Positions 3,943-63,661 of a stretch of DNA of 64,000 bases are shown piece after piece. The position numbers and the translations under genes are program-made. Under the pieces are notes generated by a model, which saw only the letters and a program-made list of their open reading frames with translations, had not been told where the DNA came from and ran no database searches. Numbering within the stretch: the first letter of the stretch is position 1; each line of letters starts with the position of its first letter. The stretch is taken from positions 44,842,786 through 44,906,785 of the forward strand of contig NC_077245.1 in the NCBI RefSeq assembly GCF_947179165.1, given 5' to 3'. The DNA comes from Solanum dulcamara (taxonomy: Eukaryota; Streptophyta; Magnoliopsida; Solanales; Solanaceae).

Positions 3943-6182
3943 TGTCACGCCCCGGAAGGGTACCCTAGACGTAACCGACACCCGAAGGCCATTTCTGACC
4001 TCCGAGCGAACCACCTGGTCCAGTCACTCATTCGTTCATTCACATTCTCTTAGCGAAACTCAATTAATCAAATACTTTTCATACTATAAGGGCCGAAGGC
4101 TAAACATTTACAACCCAACAAGAATAGTAAGTTAAGACTCCTCAAGATAACAGTTTAATCCTCCCCACACTCCAGTCTACGAAGCCTCTATTCAAGTCTA
4201 AAAGGTACCAATGACAAGCCCATGGCTACCAACAATCTAAATAAAAGAAGAGACAACAAAACTATACAAGAAGGCCCAATATCCTCCGGGAACTAGGAGG
4301 ACTCACCGACTGGCTGGAAGTGTATGTGGATCTTCAACGGAGCGCCGGTTGATGATCTCTAGTACCTGTCTCTGCATCATTAAATGATGCAGGCCAAATG
4401 ACGTCAGTACATGGAATGTACGAGTATATAAAATGGACGGATGAAACCACATTAAGAAAACATCAATATCAACTCAGGACCTCAACTCATACATGTATAC
4501 ATCACAACTCACTCAATGTCCTAAGTCCAACAAGAATAGTTTAGACAGTACTAACTCATAAGCCACTTAATTCAACTGACTCGGAGCACTAACAAGGCCT
4601 AAATGAGAGTTTCTCTTAACCGACAACCATCACCTATGAGCCGGTGATAGTACAACAATCCGACATTGTTGCCACGTCCGTCCATACCTTGCCAGGGTAT
4701 GAACGCCTCTCTAATCATGAGTACCATCGACTAGTCAAGTCCTATCATTTTAGGACAATACAAACGGGAAACATCCGACTTTAACGGTTCGATCCCACGG
4801 GAAGCATCCGACTTTAACGGTTCCAATTCCTCGAGAAGCATCCAACTTTAATAGTTCCATACCTACCGACGTTGGTGGAGTAGTTTTTGGGTTCGAGTAT
4901 GGACTATACTCTCACCGCTTTGGTGCTCGATACTCCTCCCATGACTCTATGCTCATAAGACTCCTCGAATCATCTCAAACAAGCCCTCACGGCTAGTTTC
5001 ATGTGGTACAATACCACCTCATCAACTCTGTTCTCATTTGCAATTCAATTGAGGCACAATGACAAGTATCATTTAGGACCTTGTCCACTTGCCAATTCCT
5101 TCCTCATATCAACTCAATCAAGCCTCCTCTATATGAACATTTATGACATCTCCTCAAGATTTAACACAACTCTATGACTTCAACTCAACCATTCAAATAG
5201 AATAGCGCATTTAAGGAAATTGACTTAAACAACATATTCACATGGCTAAAGAGGTCAACAAAACATAACAACAATTCATCTCCATCAATTCATACTAATC
5301 ATGAAGGAAATGGAGAAGATGAAGAAGAGAGAGAGAGAGAAGCTCCTAGGGCTTTTTAGAGAGAGAGTGGGGTCTGCCAAAATAGGTTCCCAAAAGACCA
5401 AGGGTTACATATATATAATTTGGGTAAGTTCCCAAATTGCCCCTCCTCACAAGTTCTGAAAATAGGCTAAAACGCCCTTGGCGCGATAGTGGCGCGTCGC
5501 GCCCTTACAGCACCAAGGCCAATCACGCCTAAAACCTGTACAACTTCTAGTGGTGCATCGCGCCAAGGACCAAACTACTGAGGCATATTTCTGGCGCGAT
5601 AGTGGCGCATCGCGCCCTTACGGCGCCAAGCTCATTTTTCTGAATTCTGGGAATTTGGCCTGAAAAACCCTGCACGACTTTTAGTGGCGCGTCGCACCAG
5701 GGACCAAACTATTGAGGCATGTTTCTGGCGCGATAGTGGCGCGTCGCTCCCTTACAGCGCCAAGACCATTTCCCCAGTAGTTGCAACCCAGGCCAAAATA
5801 GAATTCCTGTCGTGCTAGTTCATCTTCGGATCGTCATATCTTTTGACTCCGAACTCCAAAATTTACGTCCTTGGTGGCGTTGGAAAGAAGACTCGACGAC
5901 CTTTAATTTGATAGGTCGTGGGCCACCTAGACTGACGTCCTTCCAAAGGTAGGGTTGTTAAAAGTTGAGCCTTACATGAACTCGTCCTAAACTTAGCCAC
6001 GACGGATCCTTTGGACTTAGCTCGGTCCTAGGGGTCCTCAATGACCCCACATTACCTCCAACACTCTTAAATTCCTCAGGGACTCATCTTAACTCAAGCA
6101 CATACTTTGAAATAAATACGATGGGCCCCACACGTATACAAAAAAGGCCCGAATCTCAGGAAAAATTTTGAGGGGTATTATA
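3943..6182 (-). repeat. 3' LTR of Gypsy-1 (left)
   Basis: Starts TGTCACGCCCCGG and ends GGGTATTATA; the TACA of the partner end is mutated to TATA. It is 2240 bp against 2504 bp for its partner. The main difference is one 261-bp deletion at about 5301-5305, between two GGAA tetramers present in the intact LTR. TATA-like ATATATATAA lies at 5409-5418. Confidence 0.92.
5478..5770 (-). repeat. GC-rich dyad array in LTR of Gypsy-1 (left copy)
   Basis: Repeated units of the type GGCGCGATAGTGGCGCGTCG followed by CGCCCTTACAGCGCC begin near 5480, 5593 and 5727. They alternate with shorter units ending in CCAAGGACCAAACTACTGAGG. Each unit is rich in GGCGC/GCGCC inverted repeats. In transcript direction the array lies just upstream of the TATA-like sequence. 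Confidence 0.8.
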
Positions 6183-6194
6183 TTATCTTCCCCT
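6183..6194 (-). other. Polypurine tract of Gypsy-1
   Basis: Plus-strand TTATCTTCCCCT abuts the left LTR and reads as a purine run on the minus strand. It is followed by the family-wide motif TTGGGATCATTCGTCCTCG. Confidence 0.7.
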
Positions 6195-6307
6195 TGGGAT
6201 CATTCGTCCTCGAATGACGGGCAACCAAGAATGGACTCGGGGTACAAATCATAATCAAAACTCAGTCATTCAATCAATCAAATTCTTAATCAATTATTAA
6301 TCAAGAC

Positions 6308-10082: not shown

Positions 10083-10515
10083 TATTTGTCACGCCCCGGG
10101 AGGGTACCCTAGACGTAACCGGCACCCAAAGGCCATTTCTGACCTCCGAGCGAACCACCTGGTCCAGTCACTCATTCGTTCATTCACATTCTCTTAGCGA
10201 AACTCAATTAATCAAATACTTTTCATACTATAAGGGCCGAAGGCTAAACATTTACAACCCAACAAGAATAGTAAGTTAAGACTCCTCAAGATAACAGTTT
10301 AATCCTCCCCACACTCCAGTCTACGAAGCCTCTATTCAAGTCTAAAAGGTGCCAATGACAAGCCCATGGCTACCAACAATCTAAATAAAAGAAGAGACAA
10401 CAAAACTGTACAAAAAGGCCCAATATCCTCCGGGAACTAGGAGGACTCACCGACTAGCTGGAAGTGTATGTGGATCTTCAACGGAGCGCCGGTTGATGAT
10501 CTCTAGTACCTGTCT

Positions 10516-10536
10516 CTGCATCATGAAATGATGCAG
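10516..10536 (-). other. Conserved LTR stem-loop (9-3-9), reference copy
   Basis: Arms CTGCATCAT and ATGATGCAG pair perfectly around a 3-nt loop. A second dyad, GTACAT/ATGTAC around GGA, follows at 10551-10565. The same 21-bp arrangement is found in eleven other LTRs of this window. Function is unknown; an RNA structure in the LTR-derived leader or 3' end is an inference. Confidence 0.7.
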
Positions 10537-11815
10537 GCCAAATGGCGTCAGTACATGGAATGTACGAGTATGTAAAATGTCCGGATGAAACCACATTAAG
10601 AAAACATCAATATCAATTCAGGACCTCAACTCATACATGTATACATCACAACTCACTCAATGTCCTAAGTCCAACAAGAATAGTTTAGACAGGACTAACT
10701 CATAAGCCACTTAACTCAACTGACTCGGAGCACTAACAAGGCCTAAATGGGAGTTTCTCTTAACCGACAACCATCACCTATGAGCCGGTGATAGTACAAT
10801 AATCCGACGTTGTTGCCACGTCCGTCCATACCTTGCCAGGGTATGAACGCCTCTCTAATCATGAGTACCATCGATTAGTCAAGTCCTATCATTTCAGGAC
10901 AATACAAATGGGAAATATCCAACTTTAATGGTTCGATCCCACGGGAAGCATCCGACTTTAACGGTTCCAATCCCTCGGGAAGCATCCGACTTTAACAGTT
11001 CCATCCCTACCTACATTGGCGGCGTAGTTTCTGGGGTTCGAGTATGGACTATACTCTCACCCACTTCGATGCTCGATACTCCTCCCATGACTCTATGCTC
11101 ATAAGACTCCTCGAATCATCTCAAATAAGCCCTCATGGCTAGTTTCATGTGGTACAATACCACCTCATCAACTCGGTTCTCATTTGCAATTCAATTGAGG
11201 CACAATGAAAAGTCTCATTTAGGACCTTGTCCACTTGCCAATTCCTTCCTCATATCAACTCAATCAAGCCTCCTCTATGTGAACATTTATGACATCTCCT
11301 CAAGATTTAACACAACTCTATGACTTCAACTCAACCATTCAAATAGAATAGCGCATTTAAGAAAATTGACTTAAACAACATATTCACATGGCTAAAGAGG
11401 TCAACAAAACATAACAACAATTCATCTCCATCAATTCATACTAATCATGAAGGAATTTAAGGACTTCTTGGCTCAACCACATCAACACATATAGCATTAT
11501 ATAAATAGGAGACAAAGTTCATATAGACATACACCATACCAAGAACTCTATTTTTCATTAGTATCTAACCTCAAGCAAGAATAGGGCACATGGGTGAACT
11601 TAGCCCATGTTTTGGATAGCCTTACATACCTTGTTTGAAGACTTTGAAGAAACCTTGATGTTGGGTCTTCAATGGGGGACTCAAATCTTGAAGCGCTTGG
11701 ACTCTTTTTGTTGGAAATGGAGAAGATGAAGAAGAGAGAGAGAGAGAAGCTCCTATGGCTTTTTAGAGAGAGAGTGGGGGCTGCCAAAATGGGTTCCCAA
11801 AAGACCAAGGGTTAC

Positions 11816-11825
11816 ATATATATAA
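11816..11825 (-). promoter_or_regulatory. TATA box of Gypsy-1 5' LTR
   Basis: ATATATATAA (minus TTATATATAT) stands at the same place in both Gypsy-1 LTRs, and related TATA sequences occupy this place in Gypsy-2 and Gypsy-3. GA/CT-rich DNA follows downstream on the transcript strand, and the GC-rich dyad array stands upstream. Confidence 0.5.
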
Positions 11826-11883
11826 TTTGGGTAAGTTCCTAAATTGCCCCTCCTCACAAGTTCTGAAAATAGGCTAAAACGCC

Positions 11884-12175
11884 CTTGGCACGATAGTGGC
11901 GCGTCGCGCCCTTACAGCGCCAAGGCCAATCACGCCTAAAACCTGCACAACTTCTAGTGGCGCGTCGCGCCAAGGACCAAACTACTGAGGCATGTTTCTG
12001 GCGCGATAGTGGCGCGTCGCGCCCTTACGGCGCCAAGCCCATTGTTCTGAATTCTGGGAATTTGGCCTGAAAAACCCTGCACAACTTTTAGTGGCACGTC
12101 GCGCCAGGGATCAAACTACTGAGGCATGTTTCTGGCGCGATAGTGGCGCGTCGCGCCCTTACAGCGCCAAGATCA
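11884..12175 (-). repeat. GC-rich dyad array in LTR of Gypsy-1 (right copy)
   Basis: Same array as 5478-5770, with units near 11885, 12000 and 12135. CpG sites are still well preserved here, unlike the copies in Gypsy-2 and Gypsy-3. Confidence 0.8.
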
Positions 12176-12590
12176 TTTCCCTAGTAGTTGCAACCCAGGC
12201 CAAAATAGAATTCCTGTCGTGCTAGTTCATCTTCGGATCGGCATATCTTTTGACTTCGAACTCCAAAATTTACGTCCTTTGGTGGCGTTAGAAAGAAGAC
12301 TCGACGACCTTTAATTTGATAGGTCGTGGGCCACCCAGACTGACGTCTTTCCAAAGGTAGGGTCGTTAAAAGTTGACCCTTACATGAACTCGTCCTAAAC
12401 TTAGCCACGACGGATCCTTTGGACTTAGCTCGGTCCTAGGGGTCCTCAATGACCCCACATCACCTCCAACGCTCTTAAATTCCTCAGGGACTCATCTTAA
12501 CTCAAGCATATACTTTGAAATAAATACGATGGGCCCCACACATATACAAAGAAGGCCCGAATCTCAGGAAAAATTTTGAGGGGTGTTACA

Positions 12591-12595
12591 TACAT
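12591..12595. repeat. Target-site duplication TACAT, right copy (Gypsy-1)
   Basis: Directly follows the LTR end GGGTGTTACA and matches 3938-3942. The interrupted plus-strand LTR resumes at 12596. Confidence 0.9.
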
Positions 12596-15796: not shown

Positions 15797-16091
15797 TGTT
15801 AAAATCTACCTATGAAGCTGCAATAGATCAAGCTAAGCTACATTGAACTAGAGAGATTCGATTAGAGTGAAAGAAGGAGAACTTTTGATATATTTCTGAA
15901 GCCATTCTAATGGGCTATTTATACAAATAGATTTCACCAATTGTTGCAGCTAACAATTACTTAACAAACTCCTGACAATTACTAACAAACTTACTCTTAA
16001 CAGTGTGAGTCAAGTTAGTTACAACTAACTATAACCACCTCTTGACAACTAATATCCAGTTGTACCATCCATCCTTCAGCTGGATTTAATA
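15797..16091 (-). repeat. 3' LTR of the nested copia (left)
   Basis: Matches 46444-46741 along its length (start TGTTAAAATCTACC, end GCTGGATTTAATA; the terminal CA is TA in both copies). Plus-strand CTCTCCCTCAAGC from 16092 is the polypurine tract on the minus strand. Confidence 0.9.
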
Positions 16092-16104
16092 CTCTCCCTC
16101 AAGC

Positions 16105-17607: not shown

Positions 17608-20057
17608 TGTCACGCCCCGGGAGGGTAACCTAGATGTGACTGGCACTTGAAAGTCATTTCTGACCTTCAAGCGAATCACCTAACTCAATCATACCGTCAT
17701 CCAGTCTTATACGCTCAAAGGAAGGCTCAATTATAACATGCTATTTACAATATGGTGGCCGAAGGCCAAACATATTTAACTCAACAAAATAAGTATAATT
17801 GGACTCCTCAAAATAACAGTTCAACCTCTATGAAGCCTCTACCAAAGTCTGGAAGGTGCCAATAACAAACCCATGGTTACCAACAATCAAAATACAAAGA
17901 CAAAACAAAACTATGCAAAGAGCTCAAGATCCTCCGGAAACTAAGATGACTCACCAATTAGCTGGGAGTGTATGTGGATCTTCAACGGAGCGCCGGTTGA
18001 TGATCTCTAGTACCTGTCTCTGCATCATGAAACGATGCAGGCCGAATGGCGTCAGTACATGGAATATATGAGTATGCAAAATGGCCGGATGAAACAAACA
18101 TCAAGAAAACATCAACATAAACTAAGGGTCTCAACTCATACATATATGACAACTCACTCAAGTATCCTAAGTCTAACAAGAATAGTTTAGACGGGACTAA
18201 CTCATAAGCCACTCAACTCAACTGACTCGGAACACAATCAAGACCTAAATAGAAGTTTCTCTTATCCGACAACCATCACCTATGAGCCAGTGATAGTACA
18301 ACAATCAGACATTGTTGCCACGTCTGTCCATACCTTGCCAGGGCATGAACGCCTCCCTAATCATGGATACCATCAATTAGTCAAGTTCTATCATTTCAGG
18401 ACAATAAAATGGGAAACATCCGACTTTAACGGTTCGATCACATGGGAAGCATCCGACTTTAACGGTTCCATCCCTACCTACATTGGCGGCATAGTTTCTG
18501 GGGTTCGAGTATGGACTATACTCTTACCCGCTTTGGTGCTCGATACTCCTCCCATGACTTCATGCTCATAAAACTCCCTCTAATCATCTCAAACAAGCCC
18601 TCACAGCTAGTTTCATGTGGGACATTACCAACTCATCAACTCTATTCTTATTTCAACTCAATTAAGTCATAATGGCAAGTTCCATTTAGGACCTCGTCCA
18701 CTCGTCAATTCTATCCTCCAATTAACTCAATCAAGCCTCATTTAGGTAAGCATTTATGATATCTCCTCAAGACTCCTCACAACTCTATGACTTTAGCTCA
18801 ACAACACAAGTAAAATAACACATTTAAGGAAATTGACTTAAGCAATATAATCACATGGCTAAAGAGATCAACAAAACATAATAACAAGTCATCTCCATCA
18901 ACTCATAATAACATGAAGGTTTTAGGAACTTCTTAGCTCAAAAACATCAACACATATAGCATCAAATAAATAGGGGACAAAACTCATTCAAACATAAACC
19001 ATACCAAGAAACTCCATTTTCATGGACATCTAACCTTAAAGCAAGAGTAGGGCACATGGGTGGACTCAACCCATGTTTTGGATAGCCTTACATACCTTAG
19101 TGAAGGCTTGAAGAAAACCTTGATGTTGGTTCTTCAATGGAGGACTCAAATCTTGAAGCTCTTGGAACTCTTCTTATTGGAAATGGAGAAGAAGAAGAAG
19201 AGAGAGAGAGAGAAAAACTCCTAGGGCTTTTTAGAGAGAGAGTGGGGGCAAAGAATATGAGCTCAAAATGGACTAGGGTGATACCTATATAATTTGGGTA
19301 AGTTGCCAAATTACCCCTCCTCAAAAGTTCTGAAAATAGGCTAAAAATGCATCTGGCGTGATAGTGGCGCGTCGCGCTCTTGTAGCGCCAGGCTGATTAC
19401 GCCTAAAACCTGCACACCTCATAGTGGCGCGCCGCGCCAAGGACCAAACTACTAAGGCACATTCTTGGCACGATAGTGGCGCGTCGCGCCCTTATAGCGC
19501 CAAGGCCAATATTTTCTGGGTTCTGGAAATTGGCTTGAAAAACCCTGTACACCTTTTAGTGGCGTGCCGCGCTAGAGACCAAACTACTGAGGCATGTTTC
19601 TAGAGCGATAGTAGCACATCGTGCCACTGCGGTGCCAAGCCTAGTTTTCCAGCAATTGCAACCCAGGCCTGAAAATCTCTACTGTTCTAGTTCATCTTAG
19701 GATCGTCATATCTTTCGACTCCGAACTCCAAAAATTACATTCTTGGTGGAGTTGGAAAGAAGACTCGACAACCTTTAATTTGATGGGTCGTGGGCCACCC
19801 AGATTGTTATCTTTCAAAAGATAGGATTGTTAGAAGTCGACCCCTCATATGAACTCATCCTAAAACTTAGCCACGACGAATCTTTTGGACTTAGCTTGGT
19901 CCTGGGGGTCCTTCGTGACCCCACATCACCTCTAACACTTCTCAATTTCTCAAGGACTCGTCTTAACTCATGCAAATGCTCCACAATACTTGAGTTCGAC
20001 CTTACCCAAATACAAGAAGGGTCCGAATCTTAGGGAAACATTTTGAGGGGTATTACA
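17608..20057 (-). repeat. 3' LTR of Gypsy-2 (left)
   Basis: Starts TGTCACGCCCCGGG and ends GGGTATTACA. Contains the 9-3-9 stem-loop at 18020-18040 (one mismatch), GTATGT donor-like motif (plus 19087-19099), TATA-like CTATATAA (19285-19292) and the GC-rich dyad array (19355-19640). It lacks about 14 bp near 17830 that the right LTR keeps. Confidence 0.92.
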
Positions 20058-25123: not shown

Positions 25124-27422
25124 TGTCATACCCCGGGAGGGTACCCTAGATGTGACCGGCACTTGAAAGCCATTTTTGACTTTCAAGCGTACCACCTAAC
25201 TAAATCATACCATCATCCAATCATATACGCTCAAAGGAAGGCTCAGTTATAACATTCTATTTAGAATATGGGGGCCGAAGGTCAAAAATGTTTAACTCAA
25301 CAAAATAAGTATAATAGGACTCCTTAAAATAATAGTTCAACCTCCCCATACTCTAGTTTATGAAGCCTCTACCAAAGTCTGGAAGGTGCCAATAACAAGC
25401 CCATGGTTACCAACAATCAAAATAAAAAGACAAAACGAAACTATGCAAGGAGCTCAAGATCCTCCGGAAACTAGGAGGACTCACCAACTAGCTGAGAGTG
25501 TATGTGGATCTTCAACGGAGAGCCGGTTGATGATCTCTAGTACCTGTCTCTGCATCATGAAACGATGCAGGTCGAATGGCGTCAGTTCATGGAATATACG
25601 AGTATGCAAAATGGCCGGATGAAACAAACATCAAGAAAACATCAACATCAACTCAGGGTTTCAACTCATACATACATGACAACTCACTCAAGTGTCCTAA
25701 GTCTAACAAGAATAGTTTAGACAGGACTAACTCATAAGCCACTCAACTCAACTGACTCAGAGCACTATCAAGACCTAAATGGAAGTTTCTCTTATTCGAC
25801 AACCATCACCTATGAGCCGGTGATAGTACAATAATCAGACATTGTTTCCACATCCGTCCATACCTTGCCAGGGCATGAATGCCTCCCTAATCATGGATAC
25901 CATCAATTAGTCAAGTCCTATCATTTCAGGACAATAAAATGGTAAACATCCGACTTTAACGGTTCGATTCCATGGGAAGCATCCGACTTTAACGGTTCCA
26001 TCCCTACCTACGTTGGCGGCGTAGATTCTGGGGTTTGAGTATGGACTATACTATTACCCGCTTCGGTGCTCGATATTCCTCCCATGACTCCATGCTCATA
26101 AGACTCCCTCTAATTATCTCAAACAAGCCCTCATAGCTAGTTTCATGTGGGACATTGCCAACTCATCAACTCTATTCTCATTTCAACTCAATTAAGTCAT
26201 AATGGCAAGTTCCATTTAGGACCTCTTCCACTCATCAATTCTATCCTCCAATTAACTCAATCAAGCCTCATTTAGGTAAGCATTTATGATATCTCCTCAA
26301 AACTCCTCACAACTCTATGACTTTAGCTCAACAACACAAGTAGAATAACACATTTAAGGAAATTGACTTAAGCAACATAATCACATGGCTAAAGAGATCA
26401 ACAAAACATAATAACAAGTCATCTCCATCAACTCATACTAATATGAAGGTTTTAGGAACTTCTTAGCTCAACAACATCAACACATATAACATCAACTAAA
26501 TAAGGGACAAAACTCATTCAAACATAAACCATACCAAGAAACTCCATTTTCATGGACATCTAACCTCAAAGCAAGAGTAGGGCACATGGGTGGACTCAAC
26601 CCATGTTTTGAATAGCCTTACATACCTTAGTGAAGGCTTGAAGAAAACCTTGATGTTGGTTCTTCAATGGAGGACTCAAATCTTGAAGCTCTTGGAACTC
26701 TTCTTGTTGGAATTGGAGAAGAAGAAGAGAGAGAGAGAAAAACTCCTAGGGCTTTTTAGAGAGAGAGAGGGGGATGAAAATATGATCTAAAAATAGATTA
26801 GGGTGATACATATATAATTTGGGTAAGTTCCCAAATTACCCCTCCTTAAAATTTCTAAAAATAGGCTAAAAATGCACCTGGCGCGATAGTGGCGCATTGC
26901 GCCCGTGTAGCGCCAAGCTAATTATGCCTAAAACCTGCACACCTCGTAGTGGTGCGCATCGCGCCCTTACAGCGCCAAGGCCAATATTTTATGGGTTCTG
27001 GAAATTGGCTTGAAAAACCCTGCACACCTTTTAGTGGCGCGCCACGCCAGAGACCAAACTACTGAGGCATGTTTCTGGCATAATAGTGGCGCATCGTGCC
27101 ACTGTGGCGCCAAGCCCAATTTTCCAGCAATTGCAACCCAGGCTTGAAAATCTCTGCTGTGCTAGTTCATCTTAGGACCATCATATCTTTTGACTCCAAA
27201 CTCTAAAAATTACATTCTTGGTAGCGTTGGAAAGAAGACTCGACGACCTTTAATTTGATGGGTCGTGGGCCACCCAGATTGTCGTCTTTCAAAAGATAGG
27301 ATCGTTATAAGTCGAACCCTCATATGAACTCATCCTAAAACTTAGCCACGATGAATCTTTTGGACTTAGCTTGGTCCTAGGGGTCCTTCGTGACCCACAT
27401 CACCTCTAACACTTCTCAATTT
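25124..27422 (-). repeat. 5' LTR of Gypsy-2 (right, 3'-flank end truncated)
   Basis: Starts TGTCATACCCCGGG. It aligns to the left LTR until TTCTCAATTT (about 27420), then switches to Gypsy-3 LTR sequence. Stem-loop at 25550-25570; donor-like motif at plus 26617-26629; TATA-like at 26810-26817; dyad array 26876-27115, CpG-decayed. Confidence 0.9.
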
Positions 27423-30119
27423 CCAAATGGACGTCAGTACATGAAATGTACAAGTATGTAATATGGCAGAATGAAACATACATCAAGGAAGAACAACGTT
27501 AGCTCAAATATCTTAATTCATAAAGATAAGAGAGACTCAATCAAAGTATCATAAGGCTAAAGTAAGAATACAGTTTTAGACAAAGACCGATCATATACCA
27601 TACAACCCATTCCAATCACACACTATCTGGTCGCATATCATTTAATCCATTCCTCCACATATCACTTATTCCAATCCAATCATACACAAACCAATCATAT
27701 GTCATCCAATCCAATTCAATCATATACAAACAACTCAACAATCAAGTCAAAGGACTTAACTCAATAAATATGCAACTTAGATCTTTGAAATGTTGTACAA
27801 TCCAAATCTATCATCAAACAATCTCAATCGAACCAATCATATCATGCACAAACCACTCAATTTGGGAGTTTCTCTAACCGACAACAATCTCACTACCTAT
27901 ATATAGGTGATGCACAATGAGTCATGTCATTTCCATGTCTGTTCATACTTTCCAGGGTATGAACGACTCAAACCAATCATGGATCCGTCAATCAATCAAG
28001 TCCTATCATTTAAGGATAATGAAATAGGGAAACATCCGACATGGTACAATCCCTTCCTATGTTGGCAGTGTAGTTTATGGGATTCGAGTATAGACTATAC
28101 TCTTACCCAATTCGGTGCTCAATACTCCTCCTAAGACTCAATACGCACATATCTATCGAGTAAAATATTCAAAATACTCATTTAGTCTCTTAGGACTTAA
28201 TTTCAAATCAACTCATTTAGTCTCATTAGACTCTTTTCAAAACTCAATCAATCTGGTCTCATTGGACCTTCTTTCAAATCAACTTATCTCAATCATCAAA
28301 CTCTTCTCTTTAAATTGATACCATCTCAGCTCAATGGATGTAGAAAATATCATATGCATTTAAAAAATATAGTTCCAACTCCTCAAATCTACCACAAAAT
28401 AGATATTCTTATGTAAAAATGTTTAACTCATTTATACTCAAAATACTCATGTTCAAAGTGATAATTAAGAGACTTTTCAAACTCAAATCGTGCTTAAACT
28501 CTTTTTAAAATCAGAGATGAAAATAATCATTCTTTAATACTCAAAATAGTGTATAAATAGTCTATGCAAAAATGCTTGCAATTATTTATTTAAAACTCCT
28601 TCTCAAAAGATCATTTATTTTCAAAACGTTCATAAGACTCCAATCAAATCAAATTATGCAAATCACATATCACATAATCACATTAGACTCCAATCTACTT
28701 CATCACACCACATCCTCATCAACAAAACCTATTCATTCATATCCTCATCAAATATCATCATCACATCATAACTATTCCATTTAATTCTTTTCAATCCAAT
28801 CAATACACATACACAAACCATCTATCTCAAACTCAAGACAAATTATGACCAAAAGAAATCTCACCTTGGGTTCATGTCAATGAATACATGAATCCATACT
28901 CTCAACAAAACTCAACTCAAGAACACCATCAATACATATGAATTTATATACAAAAATTCATTTGTAGTCAACAATATGAAATATCACTATTTAGTCATTC
29001 AAGTCATGAGAATCATCATTCAATTAATAATATCAAAAAATATATTCTATAGTTTAGGAAATTCAAGTAAATCTTCATAGAAGTTTCAAACCTTTCACAA
29101 TCTTCATCCAACACATCTATGGGGCATATGGAAGAACTCAATCCATATTTTAGGTTAGCCTTACATACCTTAGAGTAGATTTTGAAGAAATCTTGTTGTT
29201 GGGTCTTCAATGGGAAGCTTGAATCTTTAAATATTTGAGGGAAAATTTTGTTGGAAATGTTTGGAAGAGAAGAGGATGGAGATTAGGGTTTTTAGAGAGA
29301 GGCACAAGACTGAAAATATGGTCCATATCGTCCAAGGCTAGAGTATATATAATTAGGGAAATAGTCCAGTTTTCCCTTCCTCAAAATCTAGAAAATTGGG
29401 TAAAATTTCCTGCTGGCGCTATAGTGGCGCGTCGCGCCACTGCAGCGCCAAGCCAAAATAGGCTTAAATCCTGCACATATGATAGTGGCGCGTCTCGCTA
29501 AGGACCAAACTACTGATCTGTTTTATGGATCTATAGTGGCGCATCCCGCCCTTACAGTGCCAAGCCTAAGTTTTCTGGGTTCTGGAAAATATGCTTAAAA
29601 ACAAAACCTGCAAGCCTAATAGTGGCATGCTGCGCCAGGGACCAAACAACTGAAGCTTGTTCTTGGCGCGATAGTGGCGTGTCGCGCCACTGCGGCGCCA
29701 AACCCAGGCTTCCTGCAGTCACAACCCAGGCCTGAAATTCCGGCAGTATTAGTCCGTCTTAGGATAGTCATAACTTTTAACTCCGAACTCTAAAATTTAC
29801 AATCTTGGCGGCGTTGGAAAGAAGACTCAAAGAAAGTTAATTTAACCGATCATGGGCCACCCAATTTATCCTATTTTAGGAGACATGGTCATTAGAAGTC
29901 GACCCCTTATACGAACTCATCCAAAAACTTAATCGATTAGGATTCTTTGGACTCGACTAGGTGTTAGAGATCCCTTATGACCCCTAAACACATCTAACAC
30001 ACTTAAAAGACTTAGGAATTAATCCTAACTCATATATAAAATTACAAGTCGTACGGTTCGAGTCTACACACACGTGGAGAAATGTTCGAGTCTTTGCAAA
30101 AAAAATCTGGGGTGTTACA
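27423..30119 (-). repeat. 3' LTR of Gypsy-3 (left, first ~500 bp missing)
   Basis: Begins at AAATGG-CGTCAGTACATG, equivalent to about 32582 of the right LTR, and ends GGGGTGTTACA. Donor-like motif at plus 29160-29172, TATA-like 29344-29352, dyad array 29413-29705. Near-identical stretches with the right LTR give duplicated spurious reading frames. Confidence 0.9.
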
Positions 30120-41537: not shown

Positions 41538-43589
41538 TTTCATGACCCAACGTAGGGCCTAGTCGTAACACGACGATCGAAATCCCGAAGGCCTCCAAAT
41601 AAGCTTCTTGTACATATCATAAGCATACATAAGGTCAAATACAAAAGCAAAAACATCATAAGAGAGTCTAAATCATGAATAGAAATCTAAAAATGTCTAA
41701 TGACAACATAAACTCAAACATATGTCCAACTAGATACCTCTAAACATGAGTATGGGCGGAGGCTAAGACATGTCCTTAGCTCACCCTCAACATACAGCGC
41801 AAACAAAAGTCTTTTGAAAAGGAAATAGTAACCAACTTGAACTAGTCCCCGGTCAATAAGGACTCACCACAACATCTTAGGATAGGAATGCCTACTAGTT
41901 ACGTAGATGATAAGGATCTTAAACCTCAACCCCTATATTATGAGATAATGTAGGCAAAAAGTATGCATTAGTACATTGAAATGTACTAAGTATGAGGACA
42001 TGACATGCAACGTAAATCATGGAATACAAAGGTCAAGTAAAACAAATGATAAGTTGGAATACGTAAAGTCATGAGAAAATCATATTAACCAATGCATTTA
42101 AAAACATAAATTCAAAATCATAACATTCTTAAGAGATCATACATATGTGGGATAGGAACCATAACCGATAATAAGACCATGCGAGCTATAACATGAAATT
42201 CGATGATACCCATATCGAGAAGGAGAAGACTACTTTGCCAAGGTAGACTCCTAATCATGAACATGTTCTATTTGTGGATCCTAACCTACGGTGGCACGCA
42301 GTTATGAGACATGAGGCTGCTACTAAGGCTTTTGGTAGGGACCCCACCTCAAGTCCACTCCATGCTAAGTCAAATCCCACAGAATACATACATAACATAA
42401 GATCATAATTTCATATATCATAGTCATGATCATAGGCTTGAAAGTATAGAATAGCTCATTTTCATAACATACTTATAATGTGAGAATTGTCCCTTCATCA
42501 TTATAATCATTTTTGCATAATTCATATCAATAGGCCTTAGGTCACAACATAGGACCCTAAGTCACCTTACTTCATAACTTAAATAAAATTCATACCTTGA
42601 AACATACTTATAATGCATGATCATCATGGAAACACATAGTCATAATTCCTACTTTGAAAATTCATGACCATAGCTTGTACTTGAAATTTGGGTATGACAT
42701 GGATGCATGATCAATTGACTTGAAAATTATAAAATTAACTTGAAGATATGCATGATCATAAACTTTATTTCAACCCATACATAATATCCTTTAGAAGTAT
42801 AAATCAAAATACTCATAATTTACATCATGAACCCTAAAAATCAAAATAGGAGAATTCATGGAAAAACTCTTCAATTTAATTCATTAACCATCAATTTATA
42901 TCATAATAGTATTATGATCATGCTTTAAATCAAAATCCATGCAATTGGAATAGAAATCACAAAACCCATAAAATACCATACTTTAATTTGATAGAAAATC
43001 TTGAGAAATTGATTGGGCTTCATGGATGAAAGGATCCATGAATCAATACACACATACCTTGGGTGAGACAACCAATTAATTTGGAAGAACTTGAGAATTT
43101 TGATGGAGAAATTGAGTGAATTTGCTTGAAGTCTTCAATGGAAACCCTTGAGAGCCTTTTTATAGAGAGAGAAATATTTGATAGATGAATTGTAGAAGAA
43201 TGAATAGAATTAGATGTTTAGGTTAATTTATAAAGTTGAATTAGGTCATATAAATGTCTAGTTTCATTAACTAATAATTTAGAAAAAGTATAAAATGCCC
43301 TTAAAAAAACTAAACTCAGCTAGAACTGCTTCCCAGGTCCGCGATGTGGTCCTGTCATGGACCACACTGTTTTGTGGATTCTTCAAAAATACTTCTTCCG
43401 TTCTAAGGGTCCTCAAAATCCACCGAGACCATTTGCCCATAGGTTTTGACCCCTTGATCAATATTCTGAATTTGGATTTTCCAAAAAGATTAAGGATAAT
43501 GCGTTACATGAGAGGCCTATTTTCAAGGCATTCTTAAGGCACTTATGAGCATTTTGTGAGCATTTTTTTTATTTTTGGGGGATGTTACA
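41538..43589 (-). repeat. 5' LTR of Gypsy-4 (right)
   Basis: Begins TTTCATGACCCAACG (the TG is changed to TT) and ends GGGATGTTACA. Stem-loop 41933-41953, then a 10-bp-arm dyad TTAGTACATT/AATGTACTAA around GA at 41968-41989; donor-like motif at plus 43051-43060. About 70 bp of the dyad cluster present in the left LTR is missing. Confidence 0.9.
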
Positions 43590-46443: not shown

Positions 46444-46741
46444 TATTAGAATCTACCTATGAAGCTGTAACATATCAAGCTAAGCTAGATTGAACTAGAA
46501 AGAATTCGATTAGAGTAAAAGAATGAGAGCTTTTGATATATTGCTAAAGCCATTCTAATAGGTTATTTATACAGATCGATTTCACCACTTGATGTAGCTA
46601 ACAACTTACTTAACAAACTCCTCACAAGTACTAACAAACTTACCCTTAACAGTGTGAGTCAAGTTAGTTACAACTAACTATAACCACCTACTTGACAGCT
46701 AATAGCCATACGCACCATGCATTTTTCAGCTGGATTTAATA
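46444..46741 (-). repeat. 5' LTR of the nested copia (right)
   Basis: Begins TATTAGAATCTACC, partner of TGTTAAAATCTACC at 15797, and ends GCTGGATTTAATA before the target duplication. Confidence 0.9.
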
Positions 46742-48318: not shown

Positions 48319-50455
48319 TGTAAGATCCCGAGTATTTGAAGGCAATATAATATCTAAATGACCTCGGTGAGTTTATTTTTGGGTCAAGTAAATTTTTGAA
48401 AGTAATAAAATAAAATGGGAGAAAAGGAGGTTGCCCAAGTATGTATGTATATATATACATTAATATATTCATTAAGGGTATTATGGATTTTTCCTATATT
48501 TTTAGTAGAGAATGAATCTGAACAGTTTGTGGACTACATTCCTAATATATATAATGCCCAAAACCCCCAACTATTTTAATTCTCTCCCACTACAAAAATC
48601 TTCTCTACAAAAAGGCTCTCAAGACCTCCATTAAAGATCAAGCTAGGATTCTCTCAAAAATCTCCATTGATCATCCATTTTCCTAAAGCAATTTACTCTG
48701 GGTATGTGAGTTTATCCATGGGTACCTTTCACCCATGGATTTCAAAGACTTCTTCGAATCTTCCATGAATTTTGATTACATCTTTGAATCTTCTCAATTT
48801 CAATTTCAATTGTATGGACTATGATGTATCTTATAAATTCAAATTTATTTTTGGCATAAATTGATAAGAAAGTTCTTGGAATTGGTAGATTCTTCATATA
48901 TAATTATTATATTGCTAATTAGGGCTTAGGATCTCATTATAGGGGATGAAAACTCATGACAAATGATGAAAAAAACTGATAATTTTCTGGGGAAACTGTG
49001 GGGAGGCATGCCACCAGAGCAACCCCTCTATAGTTTAGAGGCTGGGGCGGTGCGCTAGCAGTATACCATGCCCTGGTCTCTAAAGTTTTAATCCTGAGGA
49101 GGCGCGCCAGCAATGCGCCACCGCCCTGATTCTTCTCCATTTTATCCCTTTTATGTATTTAAGCCTTACCCCTCATCAACTACTCTTTCAAGTGCATGAA
49201 TTATGTTTTATTTATGATTTAGCCTCCCAACTAAGCATGAATTACTACTTAATCACATGAAGTTGCTTTCAAGTATGACTATTCGAGTGTAATTTCACAT
49301 ATGTTCTAAACATAAGTTACATGCAAGCTTATGAAAAAGAGTGACTTTGGATCTTTAATAAGGTGACCTAAGACTCTAATGATGTTATATGAAAATAATT
49401 AGTAATGATGGAAGGCATGTACCCACATTATATGATGATAAAATTAATGAAAAAGGTGACTCAAGATCCTTCATAGGTGACTTGAGGTCCTTATTGAGCT
49501 ATTCATATAAACATGTTATGAAGTATGATTATGAAAAGTTATGATTTATGCAAGTATAATCTATTACTATGATTATGATTATGATATGTATTCTGTAGGT
49601 TGATATACTTAGCATCGAGCAGACTTTGAGCTGGGGGCTCGATCTAAGCCTTAGTAGCAACCTCTAGTCCCTTAAACTATGTTTCCATCATAGGTTGCCT
49701 TTATGACCTAGCTAGTGGATCCACATACAAAAATTAATAATAATAATAATTGGAAAGAGTCTATCTTGGAAAGTAGTCTCCCCCTTCTCGATGTGGGGAT
49801 CATCGAATTCTATATTATAGCTCGCATGGTCTTAATATCAATTGCGGTTATATCCCACATATGTATACTCTCTTTTATTTTCTTGATAATCTCAATTATG
49901 TCTCTTAATGCTTGATCATTATGGTTTCTCTCATGTCCTTACTTATTATCTTATATATCATGTTTACTATTTTGATCATTGCATCTTACGTTTTATGTTG
50001 CATGGCATGCCCGCTTACTTAGAATATTCAAACATACTAATGCATACTTTATTGCCTACATTGTATCATAATGTAGGGGTCGAATATCATAATCTTCCTT
50101 CCACACAAGGCTAGTTGAGTTCCTATCCGGCGAAAATTGATGAGTTCTTATCTATCGAGGGCGAGTTATGAGTTGTTTTCTTTTTAAGGACTTTATTTAC
50201 ATTTATATTGAGGGTGAGCTAGGGACATGTCTTAGCCCCGGACCATCTTGATTAGTAGAGGCATCATTGGATAAATTATGTATAGTCTATGTTTGCATAC
50301 TCCTATAATTTTATGACCTATGTGTTGAGATTTTCTTATGTCATTTCTTCTTTAATTTACCTTATGCATGCTTACGATATGTCAAGAAGCTTGGTTGGGG
50401 CCTCTTCGGAGTTTCAATTACTATTTCATGACTTGGCCCTAGTTTGATCGTGACA
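48319..50455 (+). mobile_element. Solo LTR, Gypsy-4-related, plus orientation
   Basis: Starts TGTAAGATCCCGAG and ends TTTGATCGTGACA; no internal region. It is flanked by CAACG (48314-48318) and CAATC (50456-50460). The uninterrupted copy near 58730 reads CAACC, so each flank differs from it by one base, as expected for an aged 5-bp duplication. Reverse-complement similarity to Gypsy-4 LTRs includes the stem-loop (50056-50076), GTATGT donor-like site (48701-48710) and the segment around 49775-49860. Confidence 0.88.
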
Positions 50456-55797: not shown

Positions 55798-57823
55798 TGT
55801 AAGACTTCGAAAGTTAGAGGGATCGGAGCAAGTTCAAAAAAAAGAAGAAGAAAAAGAGAAAAGGAAGAAGAGAGAACTCAGTTTGCTGAATGATTCAAAG
55901 AACTGCCGAACAGGTTCAGTGAGCTCAAAGAAGACCATCAAAAGTTACAGAAAGTTTGGTTTTTACCACTACCTAGTCAATGAATAAGGGAAAACTCGAT
56001 GGACCACCGATCCAATCAGTGATCTAGATGGAGACTGCCGAATAGACCAGAAACTTGACCTTTGGGGATTGGCTAGATCGGCTATGGAAGGTACCATTCC
56101 GGGAACTGCTGAATGGGTTTGGTCAACTCGACCGACTTCTTCGAATTGACTCATCAGTTATTTTCTTTCCGATTTACTTTAGTCTTTTCCTACCCAATTA
56201 AACTCCAAGAAACGTCATTTTTTTACTATTTTTGAAAGACCTATAACTATCCAAGCCCTTTGAATCCCCTCATTCACTCCCCATTTCTCAATTTCAATAT
56301 TTCTCTCTCTAGAACATTCTCCCAAGGGTTTCACCTTTAAGACAAGTTAGGGTTCTTATTATTCAAGTCCAAGCCTCCATTATTGGAGCTTGCTATAGAT
56401 ATTTATTATCAAGGTATGTGAAAATTCACCAATGGATTTCATTCCTTCATTGGGTCCCAAAAGATCTCAAATCTTTCAATTCAACTTCACCCAATTTGTG
56501 AGGGTTTCATATCAATTCTTTATGGGTCCTTGTTATTTGATTTCAATCAACGTTATTCTTACTTATCATGCATGAATTCATTAGAGTATATGATTTCCAA
56601 TCTATTTCACATGGACACATGCATTGAGCTATGATTTCAAATTGTGAATTTTGAATCTATGAAATTATGATTTTGAATTTTAACCGATATATTATATGAA
56701 AAACTATGATGATAATGAATTATATTTCTATGATGTTTCACGCAATGTATTAATATTTGTTAAAGGTTTTTTCACAACTCATGTTTAAGTGGTGAAAGGT
56801 TTTTCTCACCGACTCAAGGATTCTGATTAATCACTCATGTAATGAGCTACTCTTATGATTATGTTATGATGAAATTATGATGATGTTTTAATGAATTTCA
56901 TTGGGATAATGACTATTCACCGAGAGGAATTTTAGGTGGGATTCGATTTGGTAGCCAAAGTAGCTACCCAAGGAAATCCTAGTAGCAACCTACAGTTCCT
57001 AAATACGTTACCACCGTAGGTTGCCTTATGAATTAGCTAGTGTATCCACGCATAGCTCATGATATTAAGAAAGGTTCTTATGAATTCTACCTTGGTAAGT
57101 AGCCTTTGTCTTCTCGGTATAGGAGTTACATCAGATTCCCTATTATAGCTTGCATGGTCTTAAGTGTCAGTTAAGGTCCTATCCCACACAAGGTATATAC
57201 TATGATATGATTTCTTACGTCAATTATATGATGCATTGACCACTATTACAATGGTTTAAATGTTTTCAAATTTTACTCATGCCTTCAAATATATTGGTCA
57301 TGCATCCCCACGTTTATTTTGCTTATGCCCATTATTATTGTTTATGCATGTTTCTTGAAAACTTAGTGTATTTCATATACTAACACATACTTTTTCCTAC
57401 ATTGTATCATAATGTAGGGTCATACGATCACGTTCATCCTCCTACGCGTGGCTATAGTTGCTTTTCTCTAGTCTATTGATCGGTGAGTCTTCATGTGTCT
57501 AGGGCATAATCAGGATGAGTTTATGTTCTTTTATCATGACATTTCTTTCTTCTCATGGGTGAGCTAGGAATATTTCTTATTCCTCCATCTAGTCTATAGT
57601 AGAGTCATGTTTAGATGATTAAGAATTTTAGTACCGAATATTTGAACATGTTTCTTGGAGCTCTTCCTTCTATCTGAGTTTGTTTTGAGATTTATCTTCC
57701 ACTTATGATTGATTTGATATTTTAAGTTACCTTATATATGCGATGTATGCTAAGAGACTTGTTTAAGGTCCCTCGGGATTCTGATCACCGTGTCATATAT
57801 AGGGTCGAGCTTGGTTCGTGACA
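55798..57823 (+). mobile_element. Solo LTR, Gypsy-4-like, plus orientation
   Basis: Starts TGTAAGACTTCG and ends GGTTCGTGACA. Flanks are CAAAA and CCATA, only a weak match, so the target duplication is uncertain. It shares the order of LTR landmarks: pyrimidine-rich leader, AAG/GTATGTG at 56411-56420, a segment with CTTGGTAAGTAGCC.../TCTCGGTATAGG, and a stem-loop at 57397-57417. It interrupts the Gypsy-5 internal region. Confidence 0.75.
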
Positions 57824-59193: not shown

Positions 59194-61577
59194 TATCATG
59201 ACCCAAACTAGACACTAGATGTGACACGATAATTAGAATTCTAAGAAACTCCAACCAAGCTTCTTCGAATACATAGAAATATATGCAACAACAACAACAA
59301 TAAAAACATACCCAGTGAAATCCCACAAGTTAGGTCTGGGGAGGATAGGAAGTATGCCGACCTTACCACTACCTCATGGAGATAGAGAGGTTATTTCTGA
59401 AAGACCTTTGGCTAAAAAGTCACCATAGCAAGATATGCATGACATAAAATTGAAAGTAAACAGAAATGCAGAAGATAAGTCTTAAAACATAGTAAATCTC
59501 AATAAAGGAGAAGTCAAAATATAACATCTGAAATGAATGGAAAATATGCTCCTCTAGTATGAACATGCCTCTACTAAACTAGATGGGTGCATAGGACAAA
59601 TCTCAGCTCACCCAAACATGAAGAAGTACATAAGTCAGGTAATAAAAGAAAGACATAGCGGGTTCTCCCTCGAATCATAAGGATTTACCAAAATAGTTAA
59701 ATTTTAGAAGAATCCCGAACTAGCCACAAGGACAAGTAGAAGCATCATAACCTATATTATAAAATAATATAGACAAAAGTATGTGTTAGTATATGAAATG
59801 TACTAAGTATGTGAAAATATGAATAACATGAATAAAAGGACATAATAAACATGAACATGAGATGCATGACCAAAATAACTTGAAAAGCACAAAGTAAATC
59901 ATAAAATTATGTTATTAGTTCAATATATCATAAAAGATATCATTTAAGAAAGCTTGTAAGAGACATAGTCATTTTGTGGGTTATGGACTGTAACCAACAC
60001 TAAGACCATGTAATCTATAAAATGAAATCCAGTGTAACTCCTACACCAAAAAGAAGAGGCTGCTTGCCAAGGTAGACTCCAAATCATTAACACCATGAGC
60101 TATTTATGGATCCACTAGCTAAGTCATTTAATACAACCTATGGGGGCATGTAGTCTGGGACAAAAGATTGCTACTAAAGACTCCCTTACTAAGCCTCCAC
60201 TTCAAAGTCCTCTTGGTGCTAAGTCAAATACCAAAGGGACAGATAAAATCTATCATCATCATATCATTAGGAAATACAATAATCATATACCAATCAACAT
60301 AATAAAATAATATAAAAGCAGCTCCTTTAAATCATGATTTTATGACATAGTTCATATAGTCACTTACCTTTCTACGCATCTAAAATCATGATTTAATTCA
60401 TATTCTGAGAAAAACTTTCACAATTCATTGATACATAATTTAAAACATCCTTGAAACATCATTCATTACTTTCATAAAACATTCGTAAATTTTTCATAAA
60501 GTTCATGTTCATAAGGAGAAAATCATATACATAGAGCATGGGTCCAAGTGAAATCAATTGAAAATCATGTCTTAAAGTGAATTCATTTATAATAAGGTAA
60601 AACACTATCATTTGAATCAAAATAGAAAGGACCCAAGAAGAATTAACATGAAACCCTCATTGAATTGGGTGAAATTTAATTTGTAGAATTTAGTTTATTT
60701 GGGAGCCAATGGATTCAAGGAAATCCATTTATAAATTCCCACATACCAGGGTAATCAAAGCCTTAAATCAATGGAGGTTGAACTTGACTTGAAGCTTAAA
60801 CTCTAACTTGACTTGGCAAAGAGGATTTGGAGAAAATTCCTAGAGAGAAGATTTTGTATCTTTGGAGAATAAGAGTGAATAAGAGCTTAGAAATCAAATA
60901 TACTCCCTTAATTAAGTACAAAATGATAGGTTAGGGGTTAAAAGAGTAGGTAATGACTAAAGTACCCCTTGAAAACTTAACTGATTTACTCCCAATATGG
61001 ATTCTTATATGGTCCATATAAGTTCCCATGGAATGTATAGATGTCCGTGGAAAGAGATGAGTTCTGGCTTATGGAGGTTGATGTTCACGAGGCTTTTCAC
61101 AGGCCGTATTGATCATCACGGGTCGTGTAACAACTCATGGAATACATGAATCTTTGGTTTCTAAAGGGTCAGCATCCACGGGGGGTCTACAATTTGTGGA
61201 ACCTCTCCTTGTACAAAGTCCTTCTACGGGCCATGTAACCTTGTACGGGTCGTGTAACCTTGTACAGTCCGTAGAAGGTCTCGTCCAAGTCATCAGTGGC
61301 TAAACTTTTCCATCTCTAAGTTTTCTCTATTCTACCGCTCGTGCACCATTCCACAGTCTGTACAAGGGCTCGTGGAACCAGTGCTCATGTTAGTGCTTTT
61401 GAAATTTTCTTTTCATTCAAACCTTCCTACTTCTGGGGTATTACAATATCTCCCCCTTAGGAACATTCTTCCTCGAATAAGACTCAAGATAACATGAAAA
61501 AAGTAGGAAAAGAGAACTAACAAACCAACATAAATGCAATGAAACATAAAATACATAAACCAAGGAGTAATCACTAC
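59194..61577 (-). mobile_element. Gypsy-6: 3' LTR and 3' internal end (minus), cut by Gypsy-7
   Basis: LTR 59194-61445 starts TATCATGACCC and ends GGGGTATTACA. It is followed by a polypurine tract (61446-61456, ATATCTCCCCC on plus) and the shared motif TAGGAACATTCTTCCTCG. The internal region is cut at 61577. A perfect stem-loop lies at 59752-59772, donor-like motif at plus 60741-60750, and a dyad array with CACGG/CCGTG-type arms at about 61010-61380. Related to Gypsy-4 in layout. Confidence 0.85.
59752..59772 (-). other. Conserved LTR stem-loop, Gypsy-6 version
   Basis: Arms CTATATTAT and ATAATATAG pair perfectly around AAA. Compared with Gypsy-1 (CTGCATCAT/ATGATGCAG), three positions differ and in each case both sides of the pair changed. 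Confidence 0.7.
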
Positions 61578-63661
61578 TGTTAATTTATCTTGGAACCATG
61601 ATGGAGGACCAAGGACCGTGGTGAGAACCATGGACCATGAAGTACTCTATGGTGGCCCCTGCCCAAAGCCCTCATAAACCATCCCAATTCAAGTACCACA
61701 AATGACCACCATGGGTAGTGGAGCACATCACGGACTGTGATGTGATCTATGATAGTCACTCCTGCAGGACCTGCACCACGGCCAAGTTTCATGGGTCGTG
61801 ATGCTCTAAACGTACTATTAAGGTATTCCATGAAGGAACTTCATAGAGATACCCTAGAGGCTTTTCAAGAACTTTTCCCAAGTCAAACACCATAGGACAC
61901 CACTACAAGCCGAGGTGAGCACCGCAGAACATGAAGGGATCCTCGTAAGTCAGTTTCAGACAAATTTTAAAAGGGGAATTTTGGTCTTTTCCTGCGTTTT
62001 AATTCAAAATGGAGTCATTTTGAGGGCAGAATTCTCTCATCTAAAGACCTAAAACCCTTCAAAACCCTCATTCTTCACACTTAGCCTTAATACACATAAA
62101 TTCTCTTCTCAAACTCTCCCAAGAACTTTAAGCCAATCTAGGGTTTAATCTTAAGTCATCTTCAAGTCTCATTTCCTTCTTAATCTTTCATTAGGGATTT
62201 TGTTTCCCCAAGGTATGTGGATTTCATCTTAGGTTCTTCCATCCATTGAACCCAAATGTTTTATCAACTTAGTATTTTAAATTCAAAATGATGAAATCTC
62301 ATGGGCTTTTACATGATGATCTCAAATGCATAGCTTATTGGTTATTTGAAGTTTATTTAAATAAATTGATATGTATTAACTGTCAATTTCTTGAAATGAT
62401 TGATTTATCAAGACTCTTATATGAATACTTGAGAGTAGCTTTAAACTATAAATGGTGGGTTGTTTAAGATATTTTAATTAATGCATTTCCATCACTCTCA
62501 TGTATGCAAGTATTATTTTAAAATGTATTTAAAGGTTATGTCAAATAAACCTGCCTAGTTTTCTTATGTTGAAATGAAGTTGCATTGAAAGCTTGACTCT
62601 AAATAAAAGTTTTTGAAGCAAATGTTAGCTTTTAAGGGAGTCTTATGAAATGATTGAATGATGATGAAAGAGATTCTTAGTCAAAGAAAGGATTCATATT
62701 CTAATGACCTATTCCACCTAATGATGATTTGTTATGTAAAGTTCTATAGACGTTTATGCTATTATGATATCTAAATGTTATTTCATGAGATTGACCTAGC
62801 ACCGAATGTAGCATGTAGATGAGGACTCGACCTAAGTGGTCCTTAAGTAGAGTCTCATGTTGCATTAACTATGCGCCAACATAGGAGCCCTTGTAGGCTA
62901 TTTATGCTAGTGGATCTATGTTTAGCTATTAAAGTTAAAGTTAAAAAAGTGATTACAGTTGACGGAGTTATACCTAAAAAGTAGTCTCCCCGTGCCAATG
63001 TATGGGGTTATGCTGGATTTCATGTAATAGCTCTCATGGTCTTAAATATCGATTACAGTCATCTTTTCCCAAAATAAATGTTTTTAAGTTTTCATATGAT
63101 AACTTCTCATGCATGCATTCACTTATGCATATTGCTTATCAATGTACTAATGTTCTTCCTTGTATAGCAAACACACATACTTAGTATATTCAAAGTACTA
63201 ATGTATATTTTTTCCTATTTGATATCACTATGTAGGGACCGGAGTTGATACACACTCTCCTCCCCATGGCTAAGTTCAATTGTTGAAGGCTACTACTATT
63301 TGGTGAGTTCCCATGTTTTGGCAACAACATTCATATCTTTCTACCTTATGTTATGTATAGACTATTAAGTTACTTTTTCTACTTTTCACTTATATCTTGA
63401 GTATTAGTTAGGGACATGTCTTAGTCATAGCTAAGTCTTTAAAGTAGAAGGTATGGTTGGACAAAATGTATAAAGTTCAAATGAATTTGGCTCTTATTCT
63501 ATGTGGAATCCCTTAGTCCTGTTATCCCTTATGTTTCCGCTTGTTTTCATTATCATCACCGATGAAAAGCTTAATAAATGCTAAGAGACTTGGGTGAAGT
63601 ACCTCCATGTACATCAGTCGTCATGTCACTTCTAGTCTCTAGGCTTCAATCATGACAAACT

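Follow-up and report, generated by a model that had tools for sequence, protein, structure and literature searches.

Plant Ty3/gypsy elements make up a large share of many plant genomes, and to our knowledge little is known of how the RNA of these elements is divided between protein making and replication. A stretch of 64,000 nt of Solanum dulcamara DNA (C9:44842786-44906785 in the 942-Mb genome; from here: the window) raises the question whether hairpins within long terminal repeats (LTRs) take part in this division. An initial annotation of the window had noticed that an inverted repeat with 9-nt arms and a 3-nt loop (9-3-9; from here: SL2) recurs in its LTRs. We report that a second palindrome, SL1, which had been overlooked in that annotation, is located just upstream of SL2 in sense, and that coordinated change of both SL2 arms, beyond transitions, is supported. 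We favour, tentatively and at somewhat less than an even chance, a reading in which SL2 is one half of a two-hairpin module that would form the 3′ end of an intron in plant Ty3/gypsy LTRs, with its hairpins controlling splicing.

Results

The 9-3-9 hairpin and its upstream companion

SL2 was found at one common LTR position in eleven copies, at all of the coordinates given in the initial annotation, the title of which had counted twelve LTRs (Table 1). The truncated Gypsy-3 LTR was correctly described as lacking the hairpin: this LTR ends at 27425, part of the upstream palindrome is retained and SL2 is gone. At this place (27412-27458) the truncated Gypsy-3 3′ LTR ends a few nt from the expected SL2 start and abuts the second element's shortened 5′ LTR, a single case; palindromes are known fragile sites. 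The Gypsy-6 arms had been quoted as CTATATTAT/ATAATATAG, a form present only at 59752-59772, whereas the copies at 35707 and 41933 read CTATATTAT/ATAATGTAG on the plus strand.

The pair types had been read on the plus strand only, yet eight of the eleven copies have their sense on the minus strand and three (50056, 57397 and 63215) on the plus strand, so that pair types are not comparable on the plus strand alone. The strand was assigned for the first elements by their open reading frames, which lie on the minus strand, and for the remaining copies by alignment to those elements. Read in sense, SL2 is fully Watson-Crick in three copies, has one G-U in four and one C-A mismatch in three, and is decayed in one; the G-U seen on the plus strand at 35707 and 41933 corresponds to C-A in the sense RNA. 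Repeats of the 9-3-9 form in which 8 or all 9 pairs are Watson-Crick number 31 in the window, among them 10 of the 11 SL2 sites, compared to a mean of 10.7 and a maximum of 18 in 100 first-order Markov simulations. By itself the recurrence of SL2 is shared ancestry, as the copies belong to related Ty3/gypsy LTRs.

SL1, exemplified by TTAGTACATT-TC-AATGTACTAA in one Gypsy-6 LTR, keeps its pairing in 91.8% of 97 cells, with covariation weaker than that of SL2 (reached by 13 of 500 shuffles). Together with the spacer and SL2 it is an island of conservation: between two groups of families, identity is 0.75 in SL1 and 0.70 in the SL2 stem versus 0.38 in the 60 columns upstream and 0.30 in the 63 columns downstream. 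A profile of this module found, above the inclusion threshold, the eleven copies plus the truncated copy and nothing further in the window. Folding z-scores of nine window modules range from -1.0 to -4.3 and are at or below -2.75 in five of them.

Coordinated change of the two arms

The pairing was evaluated in 41 modules, comprising the 11 window copies, 4 found via a perfect stem, 18 of 20 chosen for diversity from anchored matches and 8 of 10 matches from evenly spaced stretches; two low scorers (L034, L013) and three incomplete matches (L028, one from L037 and the window's truncated copy) were dropped. This set is not random and represents one genome. As the null, the same number of changes was placed at random on a tree derived from the short flanks. 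The outcome was in favour of pairing: 315 of 369 cells are Watson-Crick, compared to 241-258 under the tree null (P 0.0003-0.0013), and double-change cells exceed it as well (P 0.004-0.023). Within the window only, with SL1 and SL2 combined and one copy per LTR pair, the result was weaker (double changes P 0.0006-0.04; Watson-Crick plus G-U P 0.05-0.15).

Mutual information with average-product correction places five stem pairs at ranks 1, 4, 12, 18 and 19 of the 210 column pairs in the 21-mer; the remaining four score 0 because they hardly vary. For 33 distinct 21-mers, both the covariation score and the share of paired cells were reached by 0 of 500 shuffles and were lower in structures slid along the sequence, while the number of further pair types was not above chance (77 of 500 shuffles). 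The tree has three double changes, including one from T-A to G-C, on its inner branches; here and below, ancestral-step counts depend on tie-breaking. The strongest single item for paired change is the variation at pair 7, which occurs as C-G, as T-A and also as G-C, the last in one family (four modules: L040, one of L045 and two of L046). The hairpin of this family reads CTACATGAT-ATC-ACCATGTAG, with G-C at pair 7 and A-C at pair 8.

RNA or DNA

The paired substitutions had been taken to argue for a folded RNA rather than for a DNA sequence. The coordinated change of the arms stands, but RNA over a DNA palindrome is not proven, because a mirrored DNA site would co-vary too. Those pairs of the window that changed on both sides and are still Watson-Crick are all GC/AT transition pairs. 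Over the 41 modules, a sense model that admits G-U fits somewhat better than the antisense model (Watson-Crick plus G-U P 0.003-0.006; Watson-Crick plus A-C P 0.029-0.035). Pair 8 is a G-U in 59 of the 96 genome-wide pattern matches listed with SL2 (see below) and an A-C in one, much of that from one family; of the 41 modules, 14 have G-U and 6 have A-C at this pair. In neither set is pair 8 ever G-C.

Splice-like motifs around the module

In sense, the copies displayed have TACTRAY in the 3′ arm of SL1. CTRAY is the plant branch-point motif. It is present in 41 of 41 modules, with the branch A 31-37 nt before the AG, a count in which 18 modules were fetched by a pattern requiring CTRAY and 23 were not, the locating profile having been built from copies with CTRAY. 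The 3′ arm of SL2 terminates in YAG, as TGYAG in eight and TATAG in three window copies. The zone between branch point and AG is poor in AG, with 3 AG versus 39 GA in 1264 nt of the 41 modules, and 6 versus 69 in 54 distinct zones of the listed genome-wide matches; the spacers alone of these matches contain 4 AG versus 15 GA (37 distinct spacers).

After the YAG follows a stretch of 62-66 nt in the window copies, a putative exon, in which between-group identity is 0.30 while the length is nearly constant; it measures 58-68 nt in 39 of the 41 modules, and no donor was found in the other two. In all 11 window copies it contains proportionally less T than the 105 nt upstream, and in 9 of the 11 also less than the 60 nt downstream, the donor place of the copy at 50056 having been assigned by hand. 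U-rich introns and the acceptor CAG/G are described as plant rules in the accessible text of PMC3735527. The putative exon is followed by GTGAGT in nine window copies, GTAAAT in one and ATGAGT in one. The donor-like sequence GGTGAGTC occurs 8 times in the window compared to 1.2 expected from shuffling, and 7 of the 8 stand at the putative donor place (Table 1); the eighth, at 15695 on the plus strand, is near a 290-nt repeat (15799-16091).

CTRAY, an AG-poor zone, YAG and a donor at exon-like distance are the features by which a plant intron 3′ end and the following exon are recognised. The modules show these features, save for a donor in two of the 41, and the order CTRAY, YAG, free-sequence stretch and donor looks like the end of an intron followed by a short exon with its donor. 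A further conserved island is located 87-97 nt downstream of the donors in 9 of the 11 window copies (two were misassigned by the regular expression), for example GAGCTAGGGACATGTCTTAG in group 2 and GCCATGGGCTTGTCATTGG in group 1. No TATA box and no poly(A) signal was found at a shared place in the window LTR copies.

Abundance in the genome

The SL2 sequence of Gypsy-1, CTGCATCATNNNATGATGCAG, has 3076 occurrences genome-wide, and its reversed control has none. A pattern leaving SL2 unconstrained, TACTRAYR followed by GGTGAGTC at a spacing of 86-104 nt, gave 15,974 matches in the 942 Mb, versus 30 for the reversed control. Among 100 listed matches SL2 is present in 96, in 87 of which the final AG is intact. 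Two of the other four have SL2 with a one-base length change, so that the invariant arm and loop length claimed initially holds for the eleven window copies and not for the genome. The module profile matched 10 times in evenly spaced stretches totalling 200 kb, about once per 20 kb; extrapolated from these ten matches, the genome holds perhaps some 47,000 module copies. One such 10-kb stretch has two opposed copies about 1 kb apart (L046:5071-5132 on the plus and 6067-6128 on the minus strand).

Host elements and their LTRs

Alignment within the window showed LTR pairs flanking the coding regions of Ty3/gypsy elements. The open reading frames of the first two elements match the Pfam families gag, RVP_2, RT_RNaseH, H2C2, rve and SH3_Tf2-1, in the Ty3/gypsy order; one element has a weak match to the chromodomain PF00385 (E 7.4e-5, 23.0 bits, curated cutoff 25.1). 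Among the best 120 of 7959 protein matches, the top named one is from Solanum tuberosum, and the higher-ranking ones are unnamed. The LTRs are about 2.2-2.5 kb long, and in three LTR pairs SL2 stands about 380-430 nt before the LTR 3′ end, the boundary used for Gypsy-6 being an alignment boundary. Directly inside both 5′ LTR ends inspected is TGGTATCAGAGC, which we take to be a match to the initiator tRNA.

Both Gypsy-3 LTRs (29414-29450 and 34565-34601) contain a GC-rich inverted repeat with 18-nt arms, TGGCGCTATAGTGGCGCG / CGCGCCACTGCAGCGCCA, and 1 nt between the arms, in an LTR part with internal repeats of about 180 nt. Amid the gypsy elements, copia-like remnants of an integrase and a GAG-pre-integrase domain are located at 44320-44985 on the minus strand, with no above-threshold match to the module profile there. 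The 290-nt repeat recurs at 46446-46741 with 89% identity, both copies being outside the LTRs studied.

Table 1 Modules, putative splice sites and LTRs of the window (positions counted from the first nucleotide of the window; strand gives the sense)
Feature	Position	Strand	Remark
SL1-spacer-SL2 module, Gypsy-1 3′ LTR	4372..4427	-	SL2 = 4372-4392, fully Watson-Crick
Module, Gypsy-1 5′ LTR	10516..10572	-	SL2 = 10516-10536, fully Watson-Crick
Module, second element 3′ LTR	18020..18076	-	SL2 = 18020-18040, one G-U in sense
Module, second element 5′ LTR	25550..25606	-	SL2 = 25550-25570, one G-U
Truncated twelfth copy, SL1 part only	27425..27458	-	LTR ends just before SL2
Module, Gypsy-3 complete LTR	32558..32615	-	SL2 = 32558-32578, one C-A mismatch
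Module, Gypsy-6 LTR	35707..35768	-	SL2 = 35707-35727, C-A mismatch in sense
Module, Gypsy-6 second LTR	41933..41994	-	SL2 = 41933-41953, C-A mismatch in sense
Module, solo LTR	50015..50076	+	SL2 = 50056-50076, one G-U
Module, solo LTR	57360..57417	+	SL2 = 57397-57417, one G-U
Module, LTR copy	59752..59811	-	SL2 = 59752-59772, perfect
Module, decayed copy	63176..63235	+	SL2 = 63215-63235
GGTGAGTC, putative 5′ splice site	4300..4307	-	after 65-nt putative exon
GGTGAGTC, putative 5′ splice site	10444..10451	-	
GGTGAGTC, putative 5′ splice site	17948..17955	-	
GGTGAGTC, putative 5′ splice site	25478..25485	-	
AGTGAGTC, putative 5′ splice site	32488..32495	-	
GGTGAGTC, putative 5′ splice site	35635..35642	-	
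GGTGAGTC, putative 5′ splice site	41861..41868	-	
GATGAGTT, same place	50139..50146	+	AT replaces GT
GGTGAGTC, putative 5′ splice site	57482..57489	+	
GGTAAATC, putative 5′ splice site	59682..59689	-	
GGTGAGTT, putative 5′ splice site	63302..63309	+	
Gypsy-1 3′ LTR	3942..6183	-	contains first module; SL2 430 nt from LTR 3′ end
Gypsy-1 5′ LTR	10086..12591	-	contains second module

Discussion

A structured splice-site module as the favoured reading

A leader, packaging, dimer or 3′-end signal had been suggested initially; none of these roles was singled out by the analysis, and splice signals, which were not on that list, fit the surroundings best. With hairpins where the intron end would be, the module may control the splicing of the element RNA. 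In such a scenario the RNA would be transcribed through the module from an upstream start, and the YAG at the end of SL2, the 62-66-nt stretch and G/GTGAGT would serve as acceptor, small exon and donor of the leader RNA. SL1 would pair the branch point and SL2 the acceptor AG, holding these signals double-stranded, and a weaker third hairpin (SL3) would perhaps mask the donor as well. Masked signals would make splicing partial or inefficient and so leave unspliced genomic RNA for packaging and reverse transcription, while selection on the pairing would cause both arms to change together. That a whole plant Ty3/gypsy lineage possesses such a structure-gated splicing cassette inside its LTR, with co-varying hairpins setting the ratio of spliced to genomic RNA, is a wider proposal which we consider possible and hold with less confidence than the splicing role of the module itself.

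Several observations weigh against this interpretation. The splice-site calls are consensus matches that were recognised post hoc, no conserved place was found for a first exon and its donor, and the copy with its donor place at 50139 has no donor GT. The AG depletion is inflated by relatedness, as the 1 AG versus 11 GA of the eleven window copies shrinks to about 1 versus 4-5 when counted by family. SL3 recurs over the donor, yet for most of 10 copies its folding does not surpass that of shuffled sequences, hence it is only suggestive. The downstream island likewise keeps a fairly constant distance, and a nearly fixed spacing therefore does not set the putative exon apart. With regard to the pairing, 398 of 500 shuffles reach the observed number of pairs with changes in both arms, which is thus no higher than chance, and both Gypsy-6 LTRs have the same C-A mismatch, so that a broken pair did not prevent the transposition of that element. 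On the tree, steps from a full pair to G-U (20) show no clear excess over those to A-C (14); the two counts are too close to settle the strand.

Competing explanations

The main rival to a role in splicing, although we regard it as rather unlikely, is that SL1 and SL2 are dyad DNA elements, palindromic sites for dimeric regulators in the LTR promoter with the arms as half-sites of one protein. It would account for the invariant arm and loop length of SL2 in the eleven window copies, for A-C mispairs being tolerated about as often as G-U, and for a TRYAT core which, judged by eye, is common to the SL1 and SL2 arms in most copies. There is also a precedent: according to the accessible parts of PMC10760457 and PMC2829016, palindromes in the LTRs of Sireviruses (copia), including CACCGGACNNNGTCCGGTG (8-3-8), are read as cis-regulatory and keep their symmetry though the letters differ among elements. 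DNA dyads leave unexplained why CTRAY, the final YAG and G/GTGAGT stand at near-fixed distances, and no TATA box was found at a common position. At pair 8, the frequent G-U and the missing G-C speak for RNA wobble more than for a symmetric site.

The module could instead act as RNA hairpins of the leader or the 3′ end, with a packaging, dimer or 3′-end function, a reading that we judge less probable again, as it requires three splice-like motifs to occur in the right order and spacing by chance. It agrees with the folding z-scores and the maintained pairing, and the accessible text of PMC5454406 proposes the palindromes PAL1-3 near the 5′ end of the Ty1 RNA for dimer formation. The loops, of 3 nt, are themselves non-palindromic, whereas kissing-loop dimer sites have palindromic loops. 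Finally, there may be no selection on pairing at all, the palindrome being inherited and its mirrored methylated C sites having decayed to T on both strands. Mirrored sites would decay alike, and the window pairs that changed on both sides and are still Watson-Crick are all GC/AT transition pairs. We consider it very improbable: the module is a conservation island, the tree-based null is exceeded and, as weak evidence, no stem difference separates the twin LTRs of 3 pairs, versus 3.05 expected. Deamination alone was set aside because it cannot make the G-C type at pair 7, where T-A to G-C (L040, L045, L046) is a double transversion.

Implications

If true, a conserved structured cassette of acceptor, exon and donor in the LTR would make RNA partitioning testable by RNA mapping, and solo LTRs could donate exons to nearby genes. 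The module moreover offers a point of alignment in LTRs whose variability otherwise prevents modelling; for plant Metaviridae, the accessible text of PMC3601003 states that LTR models could not be built owing to LTR length variation.

Comparison with known systems

Rfam gave no match in the window at the gathering score. Seven matches to the module pattern in viral and bacterial contigs have contexts unlike the module beyond the matched pattern and were taken as chance. A scan of viral or bacterial contigs with the RNase H-integrase piece found no relative, and there was no match in plasmids. No description of the module was found among the papers listed by the literature searches, which covered few subscription journals.

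The closest known kind are the Sirevirus LTR palindromes, which have been interpreted as regulatory sites and small-RNA targets in the accessible parts of PMC2829016 and PMC10760457. Like SL1 and SL2, these Ty1/copia motifs are short, small-centred palindromes in plant LTRs in which symmetry is kept and letters change. According to the same parts they occur many times per LTR, mostly with a CGG-CCG core, and upstream of the TATA box, whereas the Ty3/gypsy module has one copy of each of two palindromes with splice-like motifs inside; in the window copies there is no CGG in SL1 or SL2 and no shared TATA box. For maize, the available text of PMC10760457 reports that Ty3 elements are generally without an obvious peak of such structure.

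With regard to function, the nearest parallel is the leader hairpin of human immunodeficiency virus type 1 (HIV-1), which masks the major splice donor and is proposed, with evidence, to balance spliced and unspliced RNA, both being needed (PMC4974535, in its accessible part). A structure-gated cassette in the LTR would be its plant counterpart, with the difference that the donor is masked in HIV-1, on earlier experimental evidence of the same authors, and here it would chiefly be the branch point and the acceptor. Spliced RNA of plant LTR retrotransposons is known from BARE1, Bagy2, Ogre and CRR, with a U-rich intron in BARE1; as far as the accessible text of PMC3735527 describes them, the introns of BARE1, Ogre and CRR are located in or between coding regions, whereas the putative signals here are inside the LTR. 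PAL1-PAL3 of Ty1 are, as the module would be, palindromic stem-loops close to the start of a retroelement RNA; their dimer role was proposed from structure probing, as the accessible part of PMC5454406 reports.

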